A stretch of DNA of 64,000 bases from Aureimonas phyllosphaerae (lineage in GTDB: Bacteria; Pseudomonadota; Alphaproteobacteria; Rhizobiales; Rhizobiaceae): NCBI RefSeq assembly GCF_900113065.1, contig NZ_FOOA01000003.1, forward strand, positions 186,001 to 250,000, in the 5' to 3' direction. Each line of letters begins with the position of its first letter. Position 1 is the stretch's first letter. Position numbers and translations under genes: made by a program. Of this stretch, positions 4,724-64,000 are shown piece by piece. Below the pieces are notes generated by a model. The model worked only from the letters and a program-made list of their open reading frames with translations. It did no database searches and was not told the DNA's origin.

Positions 4724-5892
4724 CAGGCGGGCGTGGCCTCGCGGGTCTTGGCCGTGCAGGAGCGGAACTCCTCCTCCAGCCGCTTGGCGTCGAGCTCGCG
4801 TCCGATGAAGACGAGCCGGCTCTCGCGCGCCTCGCCCTCGCGCCACGGCCGCTGGTGGTCGCCCTCGATGATCATGTGAACGCCCTGAATGACGTAGCGG
4901 TCCGGGTCGCCCTTGAAGGCGATGATGCCCTTGAGGCGAAGGATGTTCGGCCCCTCGGTCTGCGTCAGGTTCTGGATCCAGGGGAAGAAGCGGTTTTGAT
5001 CGAGCTCGCCGCCGCGCAGCGAGACCGACGTCACCGTCACGTCGTGGATCGGCGCGACCTCGCCGTGGTGGTGATGCCCGTGGTCGTGGTCGTGGTCGTG
5101 GTGATCATGACCGTGATGGTCATGTCCATGGTGGTCGTGGCCATGGTCATGGGCGTGATGGTCGTGGCCATGGTGGTCATGGTCGCAGTCCGGGCCGCAG
5201 ACGTGGTCGTCGTGAGTGTGCGCGGCTTTCTCCAGGAAGTGCGGGTCCTGGTCGAGAACGCGGCTGAGGTCGAAGGCGCCCTGCCCGAGCACCCGGTCGA
5301 GCCGGATCGCGGAGCGCTCGGTCCGATGGATCACGGCCGACGGGTTGATCGCGCGCACCGTCGCCTCGACGCGGGCGAGTTCCTCGGCCGACACGAGGTC
5401 GGTCTTGTTGAGGAGAACGACGTCGGCAAACGCGATCTGGTCCTCCGCCTCGCGCGAATCCTTCAGCCGAAGGCCGATGTGCTTGGCGTCCACCAGCGCC
5501 ACCACGGCGTCGAGGCGCGTCTTCGAGCGCACGTCGTCGTCCATGAAGAAGGTCTGCGCGACCGGGACGGGATCGGCAAGGCCCGTCGTCTCGACGATGA
5601 TCGCGTCGAAGCGGCCGGTACGCTTCGTCAGGTTCTCGACCACGCGCACGAGATCGCCACGTACGGTGCAGCAGATGCAGCCGTTGTTCATTTCGTAGAT
5701 CTCTTCGTCGGTCTCGACGATGAGGTCGTTATCGATGCCGATCTCGCCGAACTCGTTGACGATCACGGCGTAGCGCTTGCCGTGGTCCTCGGTGAGGATG
5801 CGGTTCAAGAGCGTCGTCTTGCCGGAGCCGAGATAGCCGGTGAGCACGGTGACGGGAATCTGGCCCTCGCTCGGGCGGGACGTGTCGGACAT
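4723..5892 (-). CDS. CobW/COG0523 G3E GTPase with long histidine-rich loop (zinc metallochaperone type)
   Basis: A 389-residue G3E-family GTPase. The Walker A motif is GYLGSGKT (residues 19-26), the metal-binding CxCC motif GCICCTVR has cysteines at 72, 74 and 75, and an NKTD guanine-specificity motif follows. Residues about 224-282 are an extreme His/Asp run preceded by a Cys pair, suited to binding zinc or another divalent metal. The CobW C-terminal domain comes last. Family members move zinc or cobalt into client enzymes using GTP. The start is fixed by an AAGGAGG ribosome site 7 bases upstream. The gene lies between creatininase and WD40 genes on one transcript; creatininase enzymes are metal-dependent and so are a possible client. 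Confidence 0.9.
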
Positions 5893-5933
5893 CGGGATGC
5901 CTCCTTGTCTGGAGCGCCCGATATAGGCCCGTC

Positions 5934-6746
5934 CTATCCGTTTTGCACGGGGGCCATTGGCCAATCCACGGCGGCGACATCGGCCAGGAACTCGACGAAG
6001 CGCGCGGACTGGTGGTCGAGGATCGCCCGGCCCATCGCGGCCGTGCCGAGCGTGGCGTTCCCGACGGTGCCGACAGGGTTGAGGTCTTCGGCTGCCCAGG
6101 CGAAGCCGAGGCGCCCGTGGGCGCGAAGGTGCCGGCGTTCCGCGAGAAGACGGCTTTGCAGCGAAGGCTGGTCGGCGATCTCGGCGGTGCGAACGAGATC
6201 GGGGCGAATCGCCAGCATCAGGGCGGTCTCGACCGCCCCGCCATGAATGCCGATCGCGATCTCTCCATCGGGGAGAAGCCCCGTCGGCAAGCCGAAGCGG
6301 TTCCACGACGCGCTGGCGACGAGGAGCCCATGCCGCTGCCGGAGGTCGAGCGCGGCGGCCTCCACAGCCTGCGTGTTGCCGCCGTGGGAGGAAACGATGG
6401 CAAGGCGTCGGAAGCCCGCGCTCGCCACGCCCTCGCCGAGGCGGACGATGGTCTCGGTCGCCACGCGCCATCCGAGTGACAGGGTGCCGGGAAAGGCAAG
6501 GTGCTCGTCCGAGGCGCCGATCCGCAGCACCGGCAGAAACACGGCTTCGAGACCGTCCGGCAGCGTGGCGATGGCTTGCGCGACCATCGCGTCGGCGATG
6601 ATCGCATCGGTGCCGAGCGGCAGGTGCGCCCCATGCTGCTCGACGGCGGCCACCGGCAGGACGGCGACGGCCCGGTCGAGCCGATCCCTCGCCGCGCGAA
6701 GCTCGGCGCTCGTCAGCTCTTCGAATCGGTGCGCCAGCAGGGTCAT
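5934..6746 (-). CDS. Creatininase-family amidohydrolase
   Basis: A 270-residue member of the creatininase (creatinine amidohydrolase) family. Expected metal ligands are visible: Glu36 and His38 in VEQHG, Asp47 in LPLGTD, the His of SSHGGN and the Glu of HGGAVET. Family members act on cyclic or formyl amides with a two-metal centre; the group also includes archaeal ArfB, a deformylase of the riboflavin/F420 pathway, so creatinine need not be the substrate. It is the first gene of a likely three-gene operon with the CobW GTPase 41 bases downstream. Its ribosome site lies in the arm of an inverted repeat (see 6751-6773). It is divergent from the MarR gene. Confidence 0.85.
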
Positions 6747-6750
6747 TGCG

Positions 6751-6773
6751 GCCTCTCTCGGTGGGTGAGAGGC
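6751..6773 (-). promoter_or_regulatory. Inverted repeat masking the creatininase ribosome-binding site
   Basis: GCCTCTC and GAGAGGC form a perfect 7-bp inverted repeat separated by 9 bases. On the minus strand the second arm contains the AGAGG Shine-Dalgarno sequence, ending four bases before the creatininase ATG. RNA folding would hide the ribosome site. As DNA it could also be an operator for the divergently transcribed MarR regulator. Both roles are inferred. Confidence 0.45.
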
Positions 6774-6866
6774 TTTTAAAGTCCGAAGGGGAATGGTGAA
6801 AGGGAGCGGCGTGGACAAGTCGGGATCACCCGGTCATCCTCGCACCGGGATTCTCGACGGTGGGGC

Positions 6867-57703: not shown

Positions 57704-58462
57704 TCATCTTCGCTCGAACGCGCAGTCGAAGAGCACGTCGCTGCCAAGGGCGACCGTGCGGGTCTTCGGGCGCAGGGCCTCGGTCAGCCGCGAGATCGGT
57801 GCGAGCGACAGGCCTGGGGCTCCCGAACCGATGATGAGCGGCGCCACGCAGATGTGAAGCCGATCCACGACCTCGGCTTCCAGGAAGTTCCGGATGGTGG
57901 CGGCACCGCCTTCCACGAGGACATGATGCAGACCGCGCTCACTCAAGGCCGCGAGAAGCGCGATCGCACACAGGCGTCCGTCGCCAGCGGGCGGCAGATG
58001 GATCGTCTCGACAGCGGTCGGCGCCATGGAGCCTTCGGCCCGCACCAGAATCGTGCGTCCCGCCTCCGACAGGCAGCGCGCGTCCAAAGGCACACGCCCG
58101 TTCGGATCGATCACGACCCGCACCGGCGATGGTCCCTTCACCTCCCGCACCGTCAGGCGCGGATCGTCCGCCACGACGCAGCCGGCGCCGACCACCACGG
58201 CATCCGCCAGCGCGCGCAGGCGGTGGAGATGGACGAAGCCGTCCGGGCCCGAGATGGGGGCGGCATCGCCGTCCACCGTCGCGACCCGTCCGTCCAGGCT
58301 CTGCCCGACCTGCGCCAGGACGAAACGTCCGCCACGCCGGCGCGCAAGCGGCTCGTAGATCGCCCACGCCGGATCGTCGCCGGGATCGAAGGCCGTCGCT
58401 TCGCCCGAGCGCAGTGCCAGAAGCGCCGCCCAAGCCTCGTCCGAGAGACGCGCGACGATCAT
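57704..58462 (-). CDS. RibD C-terminal/dihydrofolate-reductase-like reductase
   Basis: A 252-residue protein made of the RibD_C reductase fold alone, without the N-terminal deaminase of full RibD. Landmarks are LAQVGQSLDGRVAT, DAVVVGAGCVVADDPRLTVR, the DP-x-G-R-V-P segment and LVEGGAATIRNFLEAEVVDRL. Such enzymes use NADPH to reduce a ribosylamino-pyrimidine side chain. It is the last gene of a five-gene operon that starts with ribA; its ATG overlaps the sulfatase stop by four bases. A distinct substrate from normal riboflavin synthesis is likely. Confidence 0.82.
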   Translation of the reverse strand: MIVARLSDEAWAALLALRSGEATAFDPGDDPAWAIYEPLARRRGGRFVLAQVGQSLDGRVATVDGDAAPISGPDGFVHLHRLRALADAVVVGAGCVVADDPRLTVREVKGPSPVRVVIDPNGRVPLDARCLSEAGRTILVRAEGSMAPTAVETIHLPPAGDGRLCAIALLAALSERGLHHVLVEGGAATIRNFLEAEVVDRLHICVAPLIIGSGAPGLSLAPISRLTEALRPKTRTVALGSDVLFDCAFERR

Positions 58463-60099
58463 GTCCCATGCCCTCCGCCACTCATGGAGCGAACGAACCG
58501 CTCTCGGAACGCCTGCATCGGAAGGCTCGGCGCATCGGACGACGGGACCATGCCGGGCGTCAGTCCCCAGTCGTCGAGGCGGGCGAGGATCTGCGGGTCG
58601 GACGACAGGACATGGAGCGGCACGTCGCGCGAAGCGTCGGGACCGGTGACGAGTTCGGCGGGCTGATGGTCGCCGACCACGACGATTACGGACTCCCTTG
58701 CAAATCTCTGCACGAAGGAGCCGACCGCCTCCATCGCGTAGTCGATCGACAGGCCGTAGTTCTCGCGCACCCGCTCCGGATCGCGCCAGAGGACTTCGGG
58801 CGCCACACCGCTGCGGGCCTGCGCATCGAAGACCTGGCCGTCGCCGACATCCTCCCACGGAATCATGTGCGGGATGGGTGTCCACGGCGCATGGCTCGAG
58901 ATCAGCGCCGTCTGCACCATCACCGGTTGGGACGTGCTTTGGAGAATCTGTCCGATCCGCAGGAGGGTGAACTGGTCGGGCATGGTGACCCAGTTGAAGG
59001 CCAAGCCACGATAGTCGAGATCCTTGGCCGCCAGAACCTCGTCGTAGCCGAACCAGCCCGCCTCCGGCCAAGGCATGATGATTGCCGGCATCACCGCAAC
59101 CGTGCGCCAGCCGGCGCCGCGAAAGAGAGCGTTCAGGCTCCGATGGTCGCTGCGCAGGAGACTTTCGTAGCGGGTCTGGTTGTCGATCAGCAGACCCGAA
59201 AGCATCGTGCCGTGCGCAAGCCAGCTCTGCCCGCCCGCGATCGGCGAACGCAGCCAGCCGCTGCGGGCGCCGACTCCGGCAGCCGTGAGCTCGTTCTGGA
59301 CCACCTCAAGCCTTGCCAGCGTGCGCGGCGCGAACAACGGGTTCTCCAGCGCGCTGCGGCCGTAGGACTCGACGAAAACAAGAACGACGTCATGCCCCTC
59401 GAGCGCCGCAAGGAGCCCTTCCGGCGGGCGGTCCCGCAGCGGATCGACGGCGACCTCGCGCGCGAAGGCTGCCTGGGCCTCCCAGGATTGGCGGGCAGCC
59501 GCCAGCTTTCCGCCGGCATAGGCGGAAAATTCGGCGGAAACCGGCAGCATGCCGGGCCGCATTAACGCCAGGACCGCCGTTGCGAGAACCGCACCGCCAA
59601 GGGCACCGGCGCCGAGGCTCCGTCTCGCGCGCGCGGGCAGGCGCCGCATCCCCGAAAGGCCGTAGGCGAGAAGCCCAACGAAGCAGAAGAACAGGACGAA
59701 GGCCGTGCCGAGCGCGCCGAGCGCTGCCGCGTTGCCGACCGTCCCCGATAGGAGATGCCAGCCGGCGACGAGGATCGACCGGTCGACCATCGGATCGAAC
59801 GGACGCGAGAACGCTGCCAGCGTTCCCCAGTCGGCGAGTTTGAGAACGGTCCCCGCCGCCGCAAGCGCCAGAACGACTGCGGCGAGAAGCCCAAATGCGC
59901 GGCCGCGCGCCAGCGCGAGCAGGGCGACCGCCCAGAACCATTCCACCGGAAACCGAAGGTCGGCCAATGGTCCGGGCCGCAGCGGAAGCGCAAGGGCTGC
60001 GAGAAGCAGCGCAAGACCGAGACCGACGCGCAACCAGGGCCGCCAGCCTCGGGCTGCCGGTAAAGCACCCTCGCCTTTCCCGCCGACGTCGTGGCTCAA
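58459..60099 (-). CDS. Membrane-bound sulfatase/phosphoglycerol-transferase-like protein
   Basis: A 546-residue protein with about five N-terminal helices (residues 20-190) and a periplasmic alkaline-phosphatase-fold domain. The nucleophile region is FVESYGRSAL and the metal-binding close is VVVGDHQPAELV. This layout resembles LtaS/EptA-type enzymes that move phospho-groups on lipid head groups or glycans at the outer face. It is coupled by four-base overlaps to fkbM above and the RibD-C reductase below. Confidence 0.82.
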   Translation of the reverse strand: MSHDVGGKGEGALPAARGWRPWLRVGLGLALLLAALALPLRPGPLADLRFPVEWFWAVALLALARGRAFGLLAAVVLALAAAGTVLKLADWGTLAAFSRPFDPMVDRSILVAGWHLLSGTVGNAAALGALGTAFVLFFCFVGLLAYGLSGMRRLPARARRSLGAGALGGAVLATAVLALMRPGMLPVSAEFSAYAGGKLAAARQSWEAQAAFAREVAVDPLRDRPPEGLLAALEGHDVVLVFVESYGRSALENPLFAPRTLARLEVVQNELTAAGVGARSGWLRSPIAGGQSWLAHGTMLSGLLIDNQTRYESLLRSDHRSLNALFRGAGWRTVAVMPAIIMPWPEAGWFGYDEVLAAKDLDYRGLAFNWVTMPDQFTLLRIGQILQSTSQPVMVQTALISSHAPWTPIPHMIPWEDVGDGQVFDAQARSGVAPEVLWRDPERVRENYGLSIDYAMEAVGSFVQRFARESVIVVVGDHQPAELVTGPDASRDVPLHVLSSDPQILARLDDWGLTPGMVPSSDAPSLPMQAFRERFVRSMSGGGHGT

Positions 60100-60872
60100 G
60101 CCGGACGCTCCACGAGGCGGGCGTAGACATCGCCGGAGCGTCGATTGCGATCCGCCTCTTCCGCCAGCCGCTCCCGGAACGCTTCAAGCGGCAAGAAGGA
60201 CGGAATCCGGAACGCCGCCTCCTCGCCGATCACGAAGTTGAACTCGTAAGGGCCCAAGGAGGCCAGTCGATCGAGGCACTCGCCCGCAAGATCGAGCGTT
60301 GCGGGCGTGTATTCGAAGGCGACGCAGCGAAGCGGGCGCGACAGCCCGGCCAGCACCTCGCCTTCATGCCCCTCCACATCGATCTTGCAGAAGGCCGGTT
60401 CGCCATACTCTTCGATCAGGGCATCGAGCGTCGTGACCTCGACCGATACGCGAGCGTCCCATTCGACACGCCGGAAGCCCTCGTCCGCCGCCACCCGGTT
60501 TCGCCAGTCGTTCGACAAGGTCGAAACCGTCGGATGGCGGGCGGAGATCGCAAGGGTCGCCTCGCCGGGTTCGCGACCGACCGCGCGTCGATCAAGGCGG
60601 ATCCGCGAGGGGTCGAGACGGCGGGCGAGATAGTCCGCAAAAAGCGGCTGCGGCTCGAAGGCGACGACCCGCGCTCCGATGCGTGCCAGCGCGCGGCTGC
60701 GGCTGCCGACATGAGCGCCGATGTCGAAGGCGAGATCTCCGGGACCGATCAGGGCGGCCAGGAACCGGTCGAGCCCGCGGCGGCGCCAGGGCTGGCCGTT
60801 GTAGACGACGATCGAGCGCCACAGCCCGAGCGTCGCGGCATCGACGCCGACGCGTTCCAGAAGGCTAGTCAT
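60096..60872 (-). CDS. FkbM-family methyltransferase
   Basis: A 258-residue SAM-dependent methyltransferase. The SAM motif is FDIGAHVGSRSRALARIGA, motif II VVAFEPQP, and the FkbM hallmark is FCKIDVEGHEGEVLAG. The family usually O-methylates sugars or polyketides. Overlaps with both neighbours place it third in the ribA-led operon, where it might methylate the product made there. Confidence 0.85.
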   Translation of the reverse strand: MTSLLERVGVDAATLGLWRSIVVYNGQPWRRRGLDRFLAALIGPGDLAFDIGAHVGSRSRALARIGARVVAFEPQPLFADYLARRLDPSRIRLDRRAVGREPGEATLAISARHPTVSTLSNDWRNRVAADEGFRRVEWDARVSVEVTTLDALIEEYGEPAFCKIDVEGHEGEVLAGLSRPLRCVAFEYTPATLDLAGECLDRLASLGPYEFNFVIGEEAAFRIPSFLPLEAFRERLAEEADRNRRSGDVYARLVERPA

Positions 60873-61654
60873 GCCGGGCGTCTCAGAAGCGAGCGGATAT
60901 CGACGGCGAAGGACCACGTGAGAAGGCCGAGCGCGAGAAGCACAAGCCCGTCCGACCACGGAGACGACACAGGCGGCAGGAGGGCGACGCAAAGGAGGGC
61001 GATCTGCAGCACGCAAACCGTCTTGCGGCGCATCGAGGGTGCGAGCGGCCGGGTCAGGCGCGCGTCGATCGCCGCCCAGGCGAGGAAGGCGTAGCGCATG
61101 AGCCCGATCGCAAGGACATGGACGCCGGCCTTGCCGCAGATGAGCGCCAGAACGCAGAGGATCAGGATCAGGAAGGCGTCGACTTCCATGTCGAAGCGCT
61201 CGCCGAAACGGGACGCGAGGCCCGAGCGGCGCGCGAGAAAGCCATCGACCCCGTCGAGCGCCAGCGCGAAGAGCGCCGAGGCGACCAGCAGCCATTGCAG
61301 CGCGCTGTCCGTCGCCGCGATCCGCCCGTACTCCCACGCGCAGGCACCGATCACCGCCGCCATGCCGCCACGGGCCGTGGTGATGATGTTGGCCGGGCCG
61401 AAGCGCTCGTGCGGGTGATCGTCGAGGCGCCACACCACGAAGGCGGCCGTCGGCAGGAACAGGACAAGCGAGAGCGGCAGCACATGCCATCCGAGCCCTC
61501 CGTGCGACACGAGAAGGCTGGCGGCCACGGTCAGGAGCAGGGCCGTCCCGGCGAGCGTCGTGCAGGCGCCGGGCAGGCTCGGCGCATGCGCCGCCACCGT
61601 CTGAGGGATACGCGCTCCGGCCCGTGCCGGAAGTGGGATCGGGTCGAAGCGCAT
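60869..61654 (-). CDS. CDP-alcohol phosphatidyltransferase
   Basis: A 261-residue membrane enzyme with the catalytic pattern DGVDGFLAR then G-x3-D-x3-D (FGERFDMEVD). About seven helices are seen. It should couple a CDP-activated diacylglycerol or alcohol to a hydroxylated acceptor. The acceptor is unknown. The gene lies between ribA (5 bases) and fkbM (four-base overlap). Confidence 0.87.
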   Translation of the reverse strand: MRFDPIPLPARAGARIPQTVAAHAPSLPGACTTLAGTALLLTVAASLLVSHGGLGWHVLPLSLVLFLPTAAFVVWRLDDHPHERFGPANIITTARGGMAAVIGACAWEYGRIAATDSALQWLLVASALFALALDGVDGFLARRSGLASRFGERFDMEVDAFLILILCVLALICGKAGVHVLAIGLMRYAFLAWAAIDARLTRPLAPSMRRKTVCVLQIALLCVALLPPVSSPWSDGLVLLALGLLTWSFAVDIRSLLRRPA

Positions 61655-61659
61655 GCGCT

Positions 61660-62781
61660 TCAGCCGAGCTTTGCCGCGATCGCCGGCCAGTCGAGGAGAT
61701 GGCCGGCGCGCCGCGCCTTGGTGACGAGGTAGCCCTGGTTCTCGGCGGTCACGGTGCCGAGCACGGCGGTGCGCGCCTGCACCTCGATACCGGCCGACTG
61801 GAGCGCCGCGATCTTGGTCGGGTTGTTCGTCATCAACTCGACCGATCCGATGCCGAGCGAGCGGAGCATGGCGACCGCCGCGCCGTAGCGCCGACCGTCC
61901 GGCTCGAAGCCGATCTGCGCATCCGAATCGATCGTGTCGTAGCCTTCGTGTTGCAGCCCGTAGGCACGCATCTTCGCGGCGAGGCCGGTACCCCGACCCT
62001 CCTGGTCGAGATAGAGCAGCACGCCGCCACCACGCTGCGCGATCAGCTGCAGACCGTTACGGAGCTGGTCGCCGCAGTCGCACTTCAGCGAGCCGAAGAG
62101 GTCGCCCGTAATGCAGGAGGAGTGGATGCGCACGGGAACCGGTTTCGACCTGTCCGGCTCGCCCACCATGATGGCCAGCTGGTCGCGCTGCGCGAGGCCG
62201 CCGCGGAAGACGATGAACCGGCAATCCGAGATGTCGCGCAGCGGAACCGCCGTGCGCACGATCTCGGTGAAGTGTGTCTCCTCGACCAGCGCCGCCCGAA
62301 CCTCGGCTTCGTCGACCGACAGGAAGCGCCCGCCGATCCGGTCGTCGGTGCGAACCGGGCGAACGAGGAAGGCCGGCAGGAGAAGCGCGAGCCGGGCAAG
62401 ATCGTTAAGGCAGGTGAGTTCGGATGCCGGTCGCCATTCGTCGGCGAAGCGCAGATCGGCAGCGAAGGCGATCCGCGAGAGATCATCGAGCGACGCCGTG
62501 CCGGTCTTCAGGCAGACGGGCCCGATGGTGGAGATCCCGAGGGCGCGGGCCCGGTGCGCGCTGAGAAAGAGACCGACGTCGTCCGGCGTATCGCCAAAGA
62601 AGCGTTCAATGTCGCCGGGCGCGGCCGCATCGAGCGCCAGCACAGCGTGGTCCGCCCCACTTGAATGAAGGAGAACCGGCCGGCCATAGCGCAGTTCGGA
62701 AACCGCACGTTCCGTGTTCACCTTGGCGAACTCTGAGAAGGTGTCATCCCGGAAGAGGATGTCGGAACTGCCCTCGCTCAT
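61660..62781 (-). CDS. ribA: GTP cyclohydrolase II
   Basis: A 373-residue enzyme with the RibA domain in the C-terminal half. The zinc cysteines are in SSCITGDLFGSLKCDCGDQL, and YLDQEGRGTGL and TNNPTKIAAL follow; it opens GTP to 2,5-diamino-6-ribosylamino-pyrimidinone phosphate. The first 180 residues are not the usual RibB domain: the RibB Glu/Asp metal site is absent, leaving a degenerate, possibly structural domain. As the first gene of a lipid-modification-like operon it may be dedicated to a special product. Confidence 0.88.
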   Translation of the reverse strand: MSEGSSDILFRDDTFSEFAKVNTERAVSELRYGRPVLLHSSGADHAVLALDAAAPGDIERFFGDTPDDVGLFLSAHRARALGISTIGPVCLKTGTASLDDLSRIAFAADLRFADEWRPASELTCLNDLARLALLLPAFLVRPVRTDDRIGGRFLSVDEAEVRAALVEETHFTEIVRTAVPLRDISDCRFIVFRGGLAQRDQLAIMVGEPDRSKPVPVRIHSSCITGDLFGSLKCDCGDQLRNGLQLIAQRGGGVLLYLDQEGRGTGLAAKMRAYGLQHEGYDTIDSDAQIGFEPDGRRYGAAVAMLRSLGIGSVELMTNNPTKIAALQSAGIEVQARTAVLGTVTAENQGYLVTKARRAGHLLDWPAIAAKLG

Positions 62782-62957
62782 CGCCTGCTACTCCTCGAAA
62801 CCCATGCGATACGGGCGATCGCGCGGCGTCTTCGTACCGGCTCGCTCGTATGTGACAGCTAGACGACGCGCTGTTTTTATCCAGATTAGGTCGCGAACAA
62901 CCACGTGATGAGTTCCGCTCGGAGGGTAACCCCGGCGACTGGTTCCCAAGCGAAGAC

Positions 62958-63977
62958 ATGATCATCGTTGCCCGGCAAACCATTGACCCAGCGGACGTTC
63001 GCGCCGCCGACGTTTCGCTCGCACTCTGGATCGAGGAACCCGGCAAGGCTGCGCTGCGTCGAAGCGTCGCCCCGGCTCCTAGCGCAGACGAGTGGCGCGT
63101 TCGCAGCCTCTTCGGCGCGATCAGCCGAGGCACCGAGCGACTGGTCTTCGAGGGACGGGTTCCGAAGGAGGAACACGAGCGAATGCGCGCGCCGCTCCAG
63201 GAGGGCGCGTTCCCGTTCCCGGTAAAGTATGGCTACAGCGTCATCGGCCTCGTGGAGGGCGGGCGCGACGCTCCGGTCGGGCAGACGGTCTTCTGCCTCC
63301 ATCCTCATCAGGACCGGTTCGCCGCTCCGATGATGGCGTTCCGGCCGGTTCCGAAGGGCGTACCGCCAGCCCGGGCGGTGCTCGCGCCCTTCATGGAAAC
63401 CGCGCTCAATATCGTCTGGGACGCGGCGATCGCGCCCGGCGACCGGGTTGCGGTCGTTGGGGCCGGACTGATCGGCTGCCTCGTCGCCTACCTCTGTGCG
63501 CGCATCCCCGGAGCTGACGTGACGTTGGCCGACCCGAACCCCGCGCGCCGAGACGTGCTCGCCGGATGGGGCTGCGATCTCGTCGCCCCGGACGCCCTTC
63601 CCGGAGACCAGGACGTCGTGATCCACGCCTCCGGCCGGCCGGAGGGCCTCGCGCGGGCGCTGGACTGCGCCGGCCTCGAAGCGCGGGTCGTCGAGGCGAG
63701 CTGGTTCGGGCGACAGGACGTCGCAGTCCCGCTCGGCGGCGCCTTCCATTCGCGGCGGCTACGTCTTGTCTCGTCGCAGGTCGGGCGGATTCCGGCGAAC
63801 CGACAGGCCCGCTGGACCACGGCCCGGCGGCTCGACATGGCGCTGCGCCTCCTCGCCGATCCGCTTCTCGACCGCATGTTCTCCGGCGAGAGCGCCTTCG
63901 AGCGCCTCGACCGGGACTACGGAACCATCCTTTCCGATCCCGATACGCTCTGCCATCGCATTCGCTACGCGCCCTGA
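62958..63977 (+). CDS. BchC-like zinc-type alcohol dehydrogenase (MDR family)
   Basis: A 339-residue medium-chain dehydrogenase-like protein. The ISRGTERLVFEG segment replaces the usual catalytic-cysteine site, as in BchC-type enzymes, and the cofactor loop is VVGAGLIGCLVAYL. It therefore may not use catalytic zinc in the classic way. Its start is divergent from ribA with a 177-base gap, so it may share control with that operon. A 19-residue N-terminal extension before the conserved ALWIEEPGK is unusual, but no later start codon fits. It ends near the right edge of the window. Confidence 0.8.
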   Translation: MIIVARQTIDPADVRAADVSLALWIEEPGKAALRRSVAPAPSADEWRVRSLFGAISRGTERLVFEGRVPKEEHERMRAPLQEGAFPFPVKYGYSVIGLVEGGRDAPVGQTVFCLHPHQDRFAAPMMAFRPVPKGVPPARAVLAPFMETALNIVWDAAIAPGDRVAVVGAGLIGCLVAYLCARIPGADVTLADPNPARRDVLAGWGCDLVAPDALPGDQDVVIHASGRPEGLARALDCAGLEARVVEASWFGRQDVAVPLGGAFHSRRLRLVSSQVGRIPANRQARWTTARRLDMALRLLADPLLDRMFSGESAFERLDRDYGTILSDPDTLCHRIRYAP

Positions 63978-64000
63978 GGCACTTTCCCTCCGATCCCGTT

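Follow-up and report, generated by a model that had tools for sequence, protein, structure and literature searches.

What is a GTP cyclohydrolase II (RibA) doing at the head of a tightly packed run of lipid, methyl and phosphotransferase genes? The question is raised by positions 57704–63977 of a 64,000-nucleotide stretch of the Aureimonas phyllosphaerae genome (contig NZ_FOOA01000003.1, positions 186,001 to 250,000; hereafter the window), for which an original prediction, made from the letters alone, had proposed an undescribed pathway starting from a GTP-derived pyrimidine. Our analysis suggests that RibA belongs to a dedicated cluster, set apart from riboflavin synthesis, which would convert GTP into a pterin-like compound that is, in the commonest form of the cluster, built into a membrane lipid. 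We give this reading a probability of about 0.5, and we infer both the product and its role from gene content.

All six predicted genes are present on the strands assigned to them, each with Pfam or NCBIfam support (Table 1), in a source genome of 4.71 Mb and 60 contigs; coordinates beyond the window are given on the stretch L003 (window position = L003 position + 53999). The five minus-strand genes, transcribed in the order RibA, CDP-alcohol phosphatidyltransferase, FkbM-type methyltransferase, alkaline-phosphatase (AP)-fold enzyme and RibD_C reductase, overlap or nearly touch one another. Direct reading gave 5 bases between the RibA stop codon and the phosphatidyltransferase ATG, ATGA overlaps at the phosphatidyltransferase/FkbM and AP-fold/RibD_C junctions and a TTGA overlap between FkbM and the AP-fold gene, confirming the tight coupling that had been predicted together with a divergent dehydrogenase. 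The gap between the two arms presumably holds the promoters of both, and an Rfam scan of this gap returned no family. The cluster extends ~3.4 kb beyond the window end (L003 10024–13354), and two of the extra partners that the prediction had proposed to seek beyond position 64000, a gene of the 6-pyruvoyltetrahydropterin synthase (PTPS) type and a glycosyltransferase, were found there; on this plus arm, PTPS, GT4 glycosyltransferase and S-adenosylmethionine (SAM) methyltransferase genes are joined by 4-base overlaps.

The grouping is not a matter of chance, since it is conserved in other genomes. Scanning named genomes with a PTPS alignment gave at least 594 stretches, at least 575 of them confirmed; the best 80 of these were kept, a set biased to near relatives in which some loci end early at contig ends. 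Partners were counted by a six-frame hidden Markov model search, with which tblastn agrees for the ten genes of this cluster. Among these best 80 of at least 575 loci, chosen by PTPS, the dehydrogenase, PTPS and glycosyltransferase were present in all 80 and the methyltransferase in 79, followed by the phosphatidyltransferase (62), RibD_C (61), the AP-fold enzyme (60), the flippase-like LPG_synthase_TM protein (55), RibA (54), cytochrome b561 (53), FkbM (38) and an MdoH-like glycosyltransferase (12). In a phylum sample, PTPS matched at E≤1e-20 in 27 of 398 genomes, our own included; 20 loci from the other 26 positive genomes were compared, with the dehydrogenase and PTPS in all 20, the glycosyltransferase in 19, methyltransferase and RibD_C in 16 each, MdoH-like and RibA in nine each, b561 in seven, flippase, phosphatidyltransferase and FkbM in six each and the AP-fold enzyme in three. 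PTPS was also found in 20 plasmid records, and five of the six that were opened carry the core with partners (Streptomyces fungicidicus, Microbacterium, Thiodictyon, Methylosinus and Agrobacterium). The spread into Actinomycetota is known from such plasmid records only (6 of the 20 opened). One of the plasmids, pSGAir0570_2 of Microbacterium sp. SGAir0570 (59-kb, typed mobilizable), has the core with the phosphatidyltransferase, flippase and RibD_C.

A core of dehydrogenase, PTPS, glycosyltransferase and methyltransferase hence recurs in Rhizobiales, Gammaproteobacteria and Actinomycetota, with RibA, RibD_C, the phosphatidyltransferase, the AP-fold enzyme, the flippase and b561 as frequent, not constant, partners; in all, these are some ten genes that many bacteria of soils and plants have side by side. 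The check on gene order suggested by the original prediction came out in its favour, as genera both close and remote share the order and content.

Co-inheritance within the family points the same way, with the proviso that the 151 family genomes share ancestry and their counts are not independent. The cluster RibA has an orthologue of full length (E≤1e-97) in 15 of the 151, own included; dehydrogenase, PTPS, glycosyltransferase and methyltransferase genes surround 14 of these, and the other (L048) is a RibA alone. The PTPS protein, which is of the PTPS-IV subfamily (see below), is found in 32 family genomes, which include 14 of the 15 with the cluster RibA, all 22 with a cluster-type RibD_C (E≤1e-30) and all 27 with the phosphatidyltransferase (E≤1e-40). 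One genome (G074) carries the dehydrogenase–PTPS–glycosyltransferase–methyltransferase half and the b561–phosphatidyltransferase–AP-fold–RibD_C half inside two different contigs, so what ties the two halves is more than neighbourhood. Conservation and co-inheritance, including these unlinked halves, contradict the idea of chance neighbours with tight spacing, for which no support was found and whose probability we regard as negligible.

The partners fall into modules. In the 93 of 100 loci that could be tabulated (seven were left out for short flanks), the phosphatidyltransferase is present in 63, of which 59 also have the AP-fold enzyme and 57 the flippase; the lipid module moves as a block. 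An MdoH-like gene occurs in 21 loci and is shared with the phosphatidyltransferase in only one, and ten loci have neither, suggesting that the lipid module and the MdoH-like gene replace each other beside a shared core. In four named loci (L100, L107, L110 and L130), the MdoH-like gene and the core come after HlyD-like, GAF-like and peptidase-M50-like genes (f50–f52, assigned by eye).

The PTPS-fold protein is the most distinctive member of the core. The published subfamily motifs, as given in the available part of a 2016 review, are CxxxHGH for PTPS-I, CxxxxxHGH for PTPS-II and ExxHGH for PTPS-III (PMC5041015). HGH is found in none of 114 cluster copies, so that none qualifies as QueD/PTPS-I, PTPS-II or PTPS-III, and FGPAQ, the signature of PTPS-IV, is found in 113, the A. 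phyllosphaerae copy among them; at least eight family-sample loci lie on the same contigs as named loci, so that some genomes are counted twice, which inflates this total and that of the 78 RibA copies below. The Ala of FGPAQ occupies the position of the QueD cysteine, four residues before H28, and A30 stands at the second HGH histidine. By these motifs, the cluster protein is of the published PTPS-IV type, and the queuosine annotation of this subfamily is doubtful because HGH is missing and FGPAQ present. The same review, in its available part, describes PTPS-IV only as 'involved in F420, unpublished', meaning archaeal F420 (PMC5041015); the clusters seen with it here are bacterial. In 2017, 561 PTPS-IV sequences with PF00925 and PF01872 neighbours were reported as AGeNNT cluster-node 62 (PMC5445326), and both neighbours are present in our cluster. 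The available part of that report labels PF00925 as FolE2, whereas Pfam names it GTP cyclohydrolase II; as far as that part goes, it interprets PTPS-IV from the wrong enzyme.

Among solved structures, the closest is that of a PTPS homologue, SCO6650 of Streptomyces coelicolor (PDB 3d7j, 'Uncharacterized protein SCO6650'; 156.5 bits, E 3.5e-45), which matches over the whole length of the profile (positions 1–131) and has FGPAQ and HGA in the alignment. It is a single solved protein, and reportedly has no zinc and no PTPS activity, with a pterin-like binding site.

The cluster RibA carries the zinc cysteines (CxTGDxxxSxxCDC) and KMRAY, and scores 448.6 bits against NCBIfam PRK08815, slightly below the cut-off of 464. 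The cysteine pattern is kept in 77 of 78 cluster RibA copies (some loci counted twice) and the Tyr of KxRAY in all 78, two of which were read by eye; the protein would convert GTP to a 2,5-diaminopyrimidine. The claim that RibA lacks a RibB partner domain needs correcting: the N-terminal half has the fold of RibB, the 3,4-dihydroxy-2-butanone 4-phosphate (DHBP) synthase, in the predicted model, but a Pfam DHBP_synthase (PF00926) search of the protein gave no match, so that it does not qualify as a bifunctional RibBA, and the DRENEGD-type motif of the genome's other RibBA is absent. That RibBA (L004 5239–6354, minus strand, contig C35), the only other PF00925 match in the genome, has a DHBP synthase half of 275.9 bits and a weak RibA half (PF00925, 80.2 bits) without the zinc cysteines. 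The two proteins are mirror images, one keeping the RibB motif and having lost the RibA cysteines, the other keeping the RibA motif with the RibB fold only. With no zinc cysteines in that second RibA domain, this genome may have its sole classical GTP cyclohydrolase II in the cluster RibA. Among the 151 family genomes, those without the cluster RibA yield only weak matches of the same cysteine-less RibBA kind.

The remaining riboflavin genes lie elsewhere. PF01872 has three matches in the genome, namely the cluster gene, a full-length RibD (L132 1411–2580; 255.1 bits, cut-off 156.35), whose neighbouring open reading frame (ORF) looks by eye like a riboflavin synthase, and a less closely related reductase (TIGR01508, 58.3 bits). 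No lumazine synthase or riboflavin synthase was found among the assigned L003 genes, and the cluster is accordingly no riboflavin operon. The available text of a study in Sinorhizobium meliloti and Brucella reports that BrbF, of the creatininase family, deformylates AFRPP for riboflavin synthesis, that the enzyme feeding BrbF by opening GTP is still unknown and that S. meliloti secretes flavins by way of a separate branch (PMC9478397). The creatininase that the prediction had named as a possible partner is missing from this cluster, but a candidate BrbF, the only PF02633 match in the genome, lies in the window at some distance (Table 1). An overlapping ORF follows it (5501–6471, minus strand), read by eye as a COG0523/CobW-type GTPase and a possible metal chaperone partner.

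Judging from these genes, the genome has a riboflavin route independent of the cluster; since RibD, RibBA and the BrbF-like gene lie elsewhere, we read the cluster as a separate pathway. The claim that it is distinct from the riboflavin genes is borne out, as it is a conserved unit with RibD and RibBA located apart. The proposed search for a separate ribBA and ribD succeeded for both, but with a RibBA whose RibA half is without its zinc cysteines; the objection that the cluster would be ordinary if the genome had no other GTP cyclohydrolase II and RibD therefore half stands, as RibD is present and the cluster RibA is perhaps the only classical cyclohydrolase II.

Creatininase genes do lie inside 4 of 121 related loci searched, among them the S. 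fungicidicus cluster, in which one adjoins a RibA with KLRAM (Met for Tyr). The Met form of RibA yields a formyl intermediate. A rule by which Met-for-Tyr RibA goes with creatininase fails in general, because two of the three phylum-sample loci with a creatininase, both of the gammaproteobacterial sample, have a Tyr-type RibA (KLRAY).

As predicted, the cluster reductase has no deaminase domain. It falls below the cut-offs both of the bacterial RibD model (TIGR00326, eubact_ribD; 108.6 bits against 156.35), which describes a deaminase fusion, and of the archaeal-type stand-alone reductase (TIGR01508; 116 bits against 186.45), and of the six cluster members scanned, three score higher with TIGR01508 and three with TIGR00326. 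The dehydrogenase is divergent, as described, but its likeness to BchC is only remote (Table 1). In 14 aligned members it shows GAISRGTE and KYGY and no GHE motif, the mark of zinc alcohol dehydrogenases; among its solved relatives, matched at weak E-values (2.6e-10 and worse), are dehydrogenases of sorbitol, xylitol, L-arabinitol and galactitol phosphate.

The lipid module can also be placed by family. DxxDGxxARx8Gx3Dx3D is the motif of the CDP-alcohol phosphatidyltransferase superfamily, to which the cluster protein belongs by this motif and by its Pfam match; D134, D137, G138, A141, R142, G151, D155 and D159 are listed as invariant in 23 sequences, with the second G of the set as the exception among the motif residues. 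The nearest curated relative is pgsA in all 23 members scanned, with further matches to archaetidylinositol phosphate synthase (22), pssA (21) and PIPSynth (17). The window protein scores 26.8 bits against the PgsA model, far below the cut-off of 109.1. PgsA and the inositol-phosphate synthases use phosphorylated polyols, and PssA uses serine. In the AP-fold enzyme, E244, S292, H403, D477 and H478 are invariant in sets of 19 and of 31 sequences. Its predicted model (predicted local distance difference test, pLDDT, 89.2) combines the alkaline-phosphatase fold with membrane helices, as in LtaS/Ept-type enzymes, and gave LtaP, MCR-1 and LtaS as best Foldseek matches, with sulfatases from rank 9; an NCBIfam scan of the protein gave no match. 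The enzyme thus seems nearest in fold to the LtaS/LtaP and Ept/MCR phospho-alcohol transferases, with sulfatases matching too. PDB 3c48 is among the best solved relatives of the GT4 protein, as are inositol- and phosphatidylinositol-glycosyltransferases; no confident solved relative was found for the SAM methyltransferase.

From these assignments a pathway can be proposed. RibA, with its intact motifs, would open GTP to 2,5-diamino-6-ribosylamino-4(3H)-pyrimidinone 5'-phosphate, and the RibD_C protein, to judge from its family, would reduce the ribosyl to a ribityl group. The BchC-like dehydrogenase may then oxidise a side-chain hydroxyl and PTPS-IV, without the zinc and cysteine motif of QueD/PTPS, may help to close or rearrange the pteridine ring, the weakest step of the scheme; side-chain oxidation and ring formation are suggested because a zinc-less PTPS-fold protein always stands beside a polyol-type dehydrogenase. 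Glycosylation by GT4 and methylation by the SAM and FkbM enzymes would follow, as expected of these families. Finally, the PgsA-like enzyme would attach the phosphorylated polyol tail to a phosphatidyl group, flipping of the lipid would fall to the LPG_synthase_TM protein and the LtaS/Ept-fold enzyme would act on the head group outside; it is the combination of PgsA-like enzyme, flippase and outer-face transferase that suggests a lipid product. In the other variant, an MdoH-like glycosyltransferase takes the place of the lipid module. The gene content agrees with the earlier proposal of a product that could be placed on a lipid or glycan. In other species, cytochrome b561 is often found nearby, which hints, speculatively, at electron exchange of the compound with the quinone pool.

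A bolder version remains tentative, and we consider it somewhat doubtful: proteobacteria and actinobacteria would share new phospholipids (glucans in the MdoH variant) whose head group is a glycosylated, methylated, GTP-derived pteridine made via cyclohydrolase II and not FolE, with PTPS-IV as the ring-forming or ring-binding protein and the lipid, flipped across the inner membrane, serving with b561 as a redox cofactor.

Several observations weigh against a pteridine lipid. Many PTPS-IV genomes lack the genes for particular steps (of the 32 in the family, ten are without RibD_C, five without the phosphatidyltransferase and 18 without the cluster RibA), so not every version has the GTP-opening, reduction and lipid steps; where steps are missing, housekeeping RibD and BrbF could step in. 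Only the dehydrogenase, PTPS-IV, glycosyltransferase and methyltransferase are near-constant, six of the 93 loci have only the MdoH-like gene beside the core and a Streptomyces anthocyanicus plasmid has PTPS-IV without any partner within 12 kb. At the level of single enzymes, RibD_C model scores do not tell a 2-amino from a 2-oxo pyrimidine substrate, a phosphorylated acceptor is not certain because pssA also matches 21 of the 23 phosphatidyltransferases, and the structural matches of the AP-fold enzyme are moderate (template modelling scores of 0.24–0.39 on the query) and include sulfatases. The acceptor and the order of steps are guesses from gene content.

The near-constant set of four, as seen in the best 80 loci, would also suit a core that makes a soluble, secreted pterin glycoside acting as screen, signal or redox shuttle, with the lipid-module genes serving, in some lineages only, the surface glycan or lipid by which it is carried or exported. 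In 20 of its 21 loci the MdoH-like variant comes without the lipid module, and pterin glycosides occur in cyanobacteria and Chlorobium according to the available parts of two sources (PMC13259868; PMC5683033). Against this stand the phosphatidyltransferase's co-inheritance with PTPS-IV in all 27 family genomes that have it, even where unlinked, and its presence in clusters of Actinomycetota and Gammaproteobacteria; we find a soluble product unlikely, though by no means far-fetched. That RibA and RibD_C are a second supply for riboflavin or secreted flavins, with the other genes as unrelated neighbours, draws on the cysteine-less RibA half of the genome's RibBA, on the possibly unique cluster RibA and on the separate secretion branch of S. 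meliloti cited above. It is an improbable account, since an intact RibD and a BrbF-like creatininase, the Rhizobiales route of the available part of PMC9478397, are present elsewhere, most family genomes manage without a cluster RibA, RibD_C and the phosphatidyltransferase track PTPS-IV and not riboflavin, and no flavin mononucleotide (FMN) riboswitch was found in seven cluster loci searched with Rfam, which returned only tRNAs and one group II intron. Public annotation would assign the PTPS gene to queuosine, folate or tetrahydrobiopterin synthesis, and 14 of the 20 matching plasmid records bear the label 6-carboxytetrahydropterin synthase; the missing HGH motif speaks against these functions for the protein, no cluster partner was recognised as queC, queE or folE and the annotation is very improbable as an explanation of the locus.

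How much of the pteridine-lipid cluster is new? The claim of an undescribed pathway needs qualifying: the PTPS-IV neighbourhood with two of these families, PF00925 and PF01872, is already known (PMC5445326), but its available description includes no lipid, sugar or methyl genes and names no pathway or product. The open-licence PMC literature holds no account of the pathway that we could find, weak evidence as absences there are, and neither RibA, PTPS nor 'gene cluster' is mentioned in the available text of a review on pterins in bacteria from 2026 (PMC13259868). Within the limits of that literature, the full cluster, its modules, its co-inheritance and the spread to Actinomycetota appear to be new. 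The BrbF pathway resembles the cluster in its GTP cyclohydrolase II and RibD_C chemistry and in the creatininase-family formamidase beside some clusters (available part of PMC9478397), but our cluster has no recognised lumazine or riboflavin synthase and the riboflavin genes lie elsewhere. The pterin-glycoside systems of cyanobacteria and Chlorobium share the idea of a PTPS-family protein with a glycosyltransferase acting on a pteridine, the Chlorobium glycosyltransferase sequence not being among those compared; they differ in that the cluster starts at RibA and not FolE, has an HGH-less PTPS and carries a lipid module. LtaS/LtaP and Ept/MCR share the fold of the AP-type enzyme, and PgsA is the nearest model of the phosphatidyltransferase; both cluster enzymes differ from these in their NCBIfam results given above.

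The cluster offers a concrete, testable setting for PTPS-IV, a subfamily annotated as queuosine synthesis. Should the product be a pteridine lipid, it would represent a new class of membrane lipids and imply that pteridines can be reached from GTP by a second way. The cluster would also touch the flavin and pterin physiology of Rhizobiales, in which, according to the available part of PMC9478397, it is unknown which enzyme opens GTP for the BrbF route. Because the genes occur on plasmids, one of them mobilizable and of 59 kb, the trait may move between phyla.

Table 1. Features of the RibA–PTPS-IV cluster and the candidate BrbF gene (window positions unless marked L003)
Feature	Position	Strand	Support
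Stand-alone RibD_C-type reductase, 252 aa, ATG at 58462	57704–58462	-	Pfam RibD_C 134.9 bits; no deaminase domain
Alkaline-phosphatase-fold membrane enzyme, 546 aa, TTG start at 60099	58459–60099	-	Pfam Sulfatase 37.7 bits; invariant residues; predicted model; Foldseek
FkbM-type methyltransferase, 258 aa	60096–60872	-	Pfam 60.9 bits; TIGR01444 87.3 bits (cut-off 37.7); ATGA overlap
CDP-alcohol phosphatidyltransferase, 261 aa	60869–61654	-	Pfam CDP-OH_P_transf (PF01066) 48.9 bits; DxxDGxxARx8Gx3Dx3D
GTP cyclohydrolase II (RibA), 373 aa, RibB-fold N-terminal half without RibB motif	61660–62781	-	PF00925 178 bits
Divergent intergenic region RibA/dehydrogenase, 176 bases	62782–62957		read directly
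BchC-like medium-chain dehydrogenase, 339 aa, first plus-arm gene	62958–63977	+	NCBIfam bchC 40.4 bits (cut-off 291.25)
PTPS-IV	L003 10024–10422	+	FGPAQ; PTPS fold family
GT4 glycosyltransferase	L003 10419–11477	+	beyond window
SAM methyltransferase	L003 11474–12256	+	beyond window
LPG_synthase_TM flippase-like protein	L003 12269–13354	- (convergent)	beyond window
Creatininase-family protein, candidate BrbF, outside cluster	5934–6818	-	PF02633 208.3 bits

On L003, a set of ABC transporter genes comes next after the LPG_synthase_TM gene, and on the far side of the minus arm a TadE-type gene is followed by further genes. The flanking AdeD and TadE1 genes are each common to one of the best 80 of at least 575 loci, that of Aureimonas flava, to which the cluster and its flanks are closest within this set; since only A. 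flava shares them there, we excluded the AdeD- and TadE-side genes from the cluster. The isolated PTPS-IV gene of the S. anthocyanicus plasmid (L183 12001–12426) adjoins a MEKHLA-domain gene.

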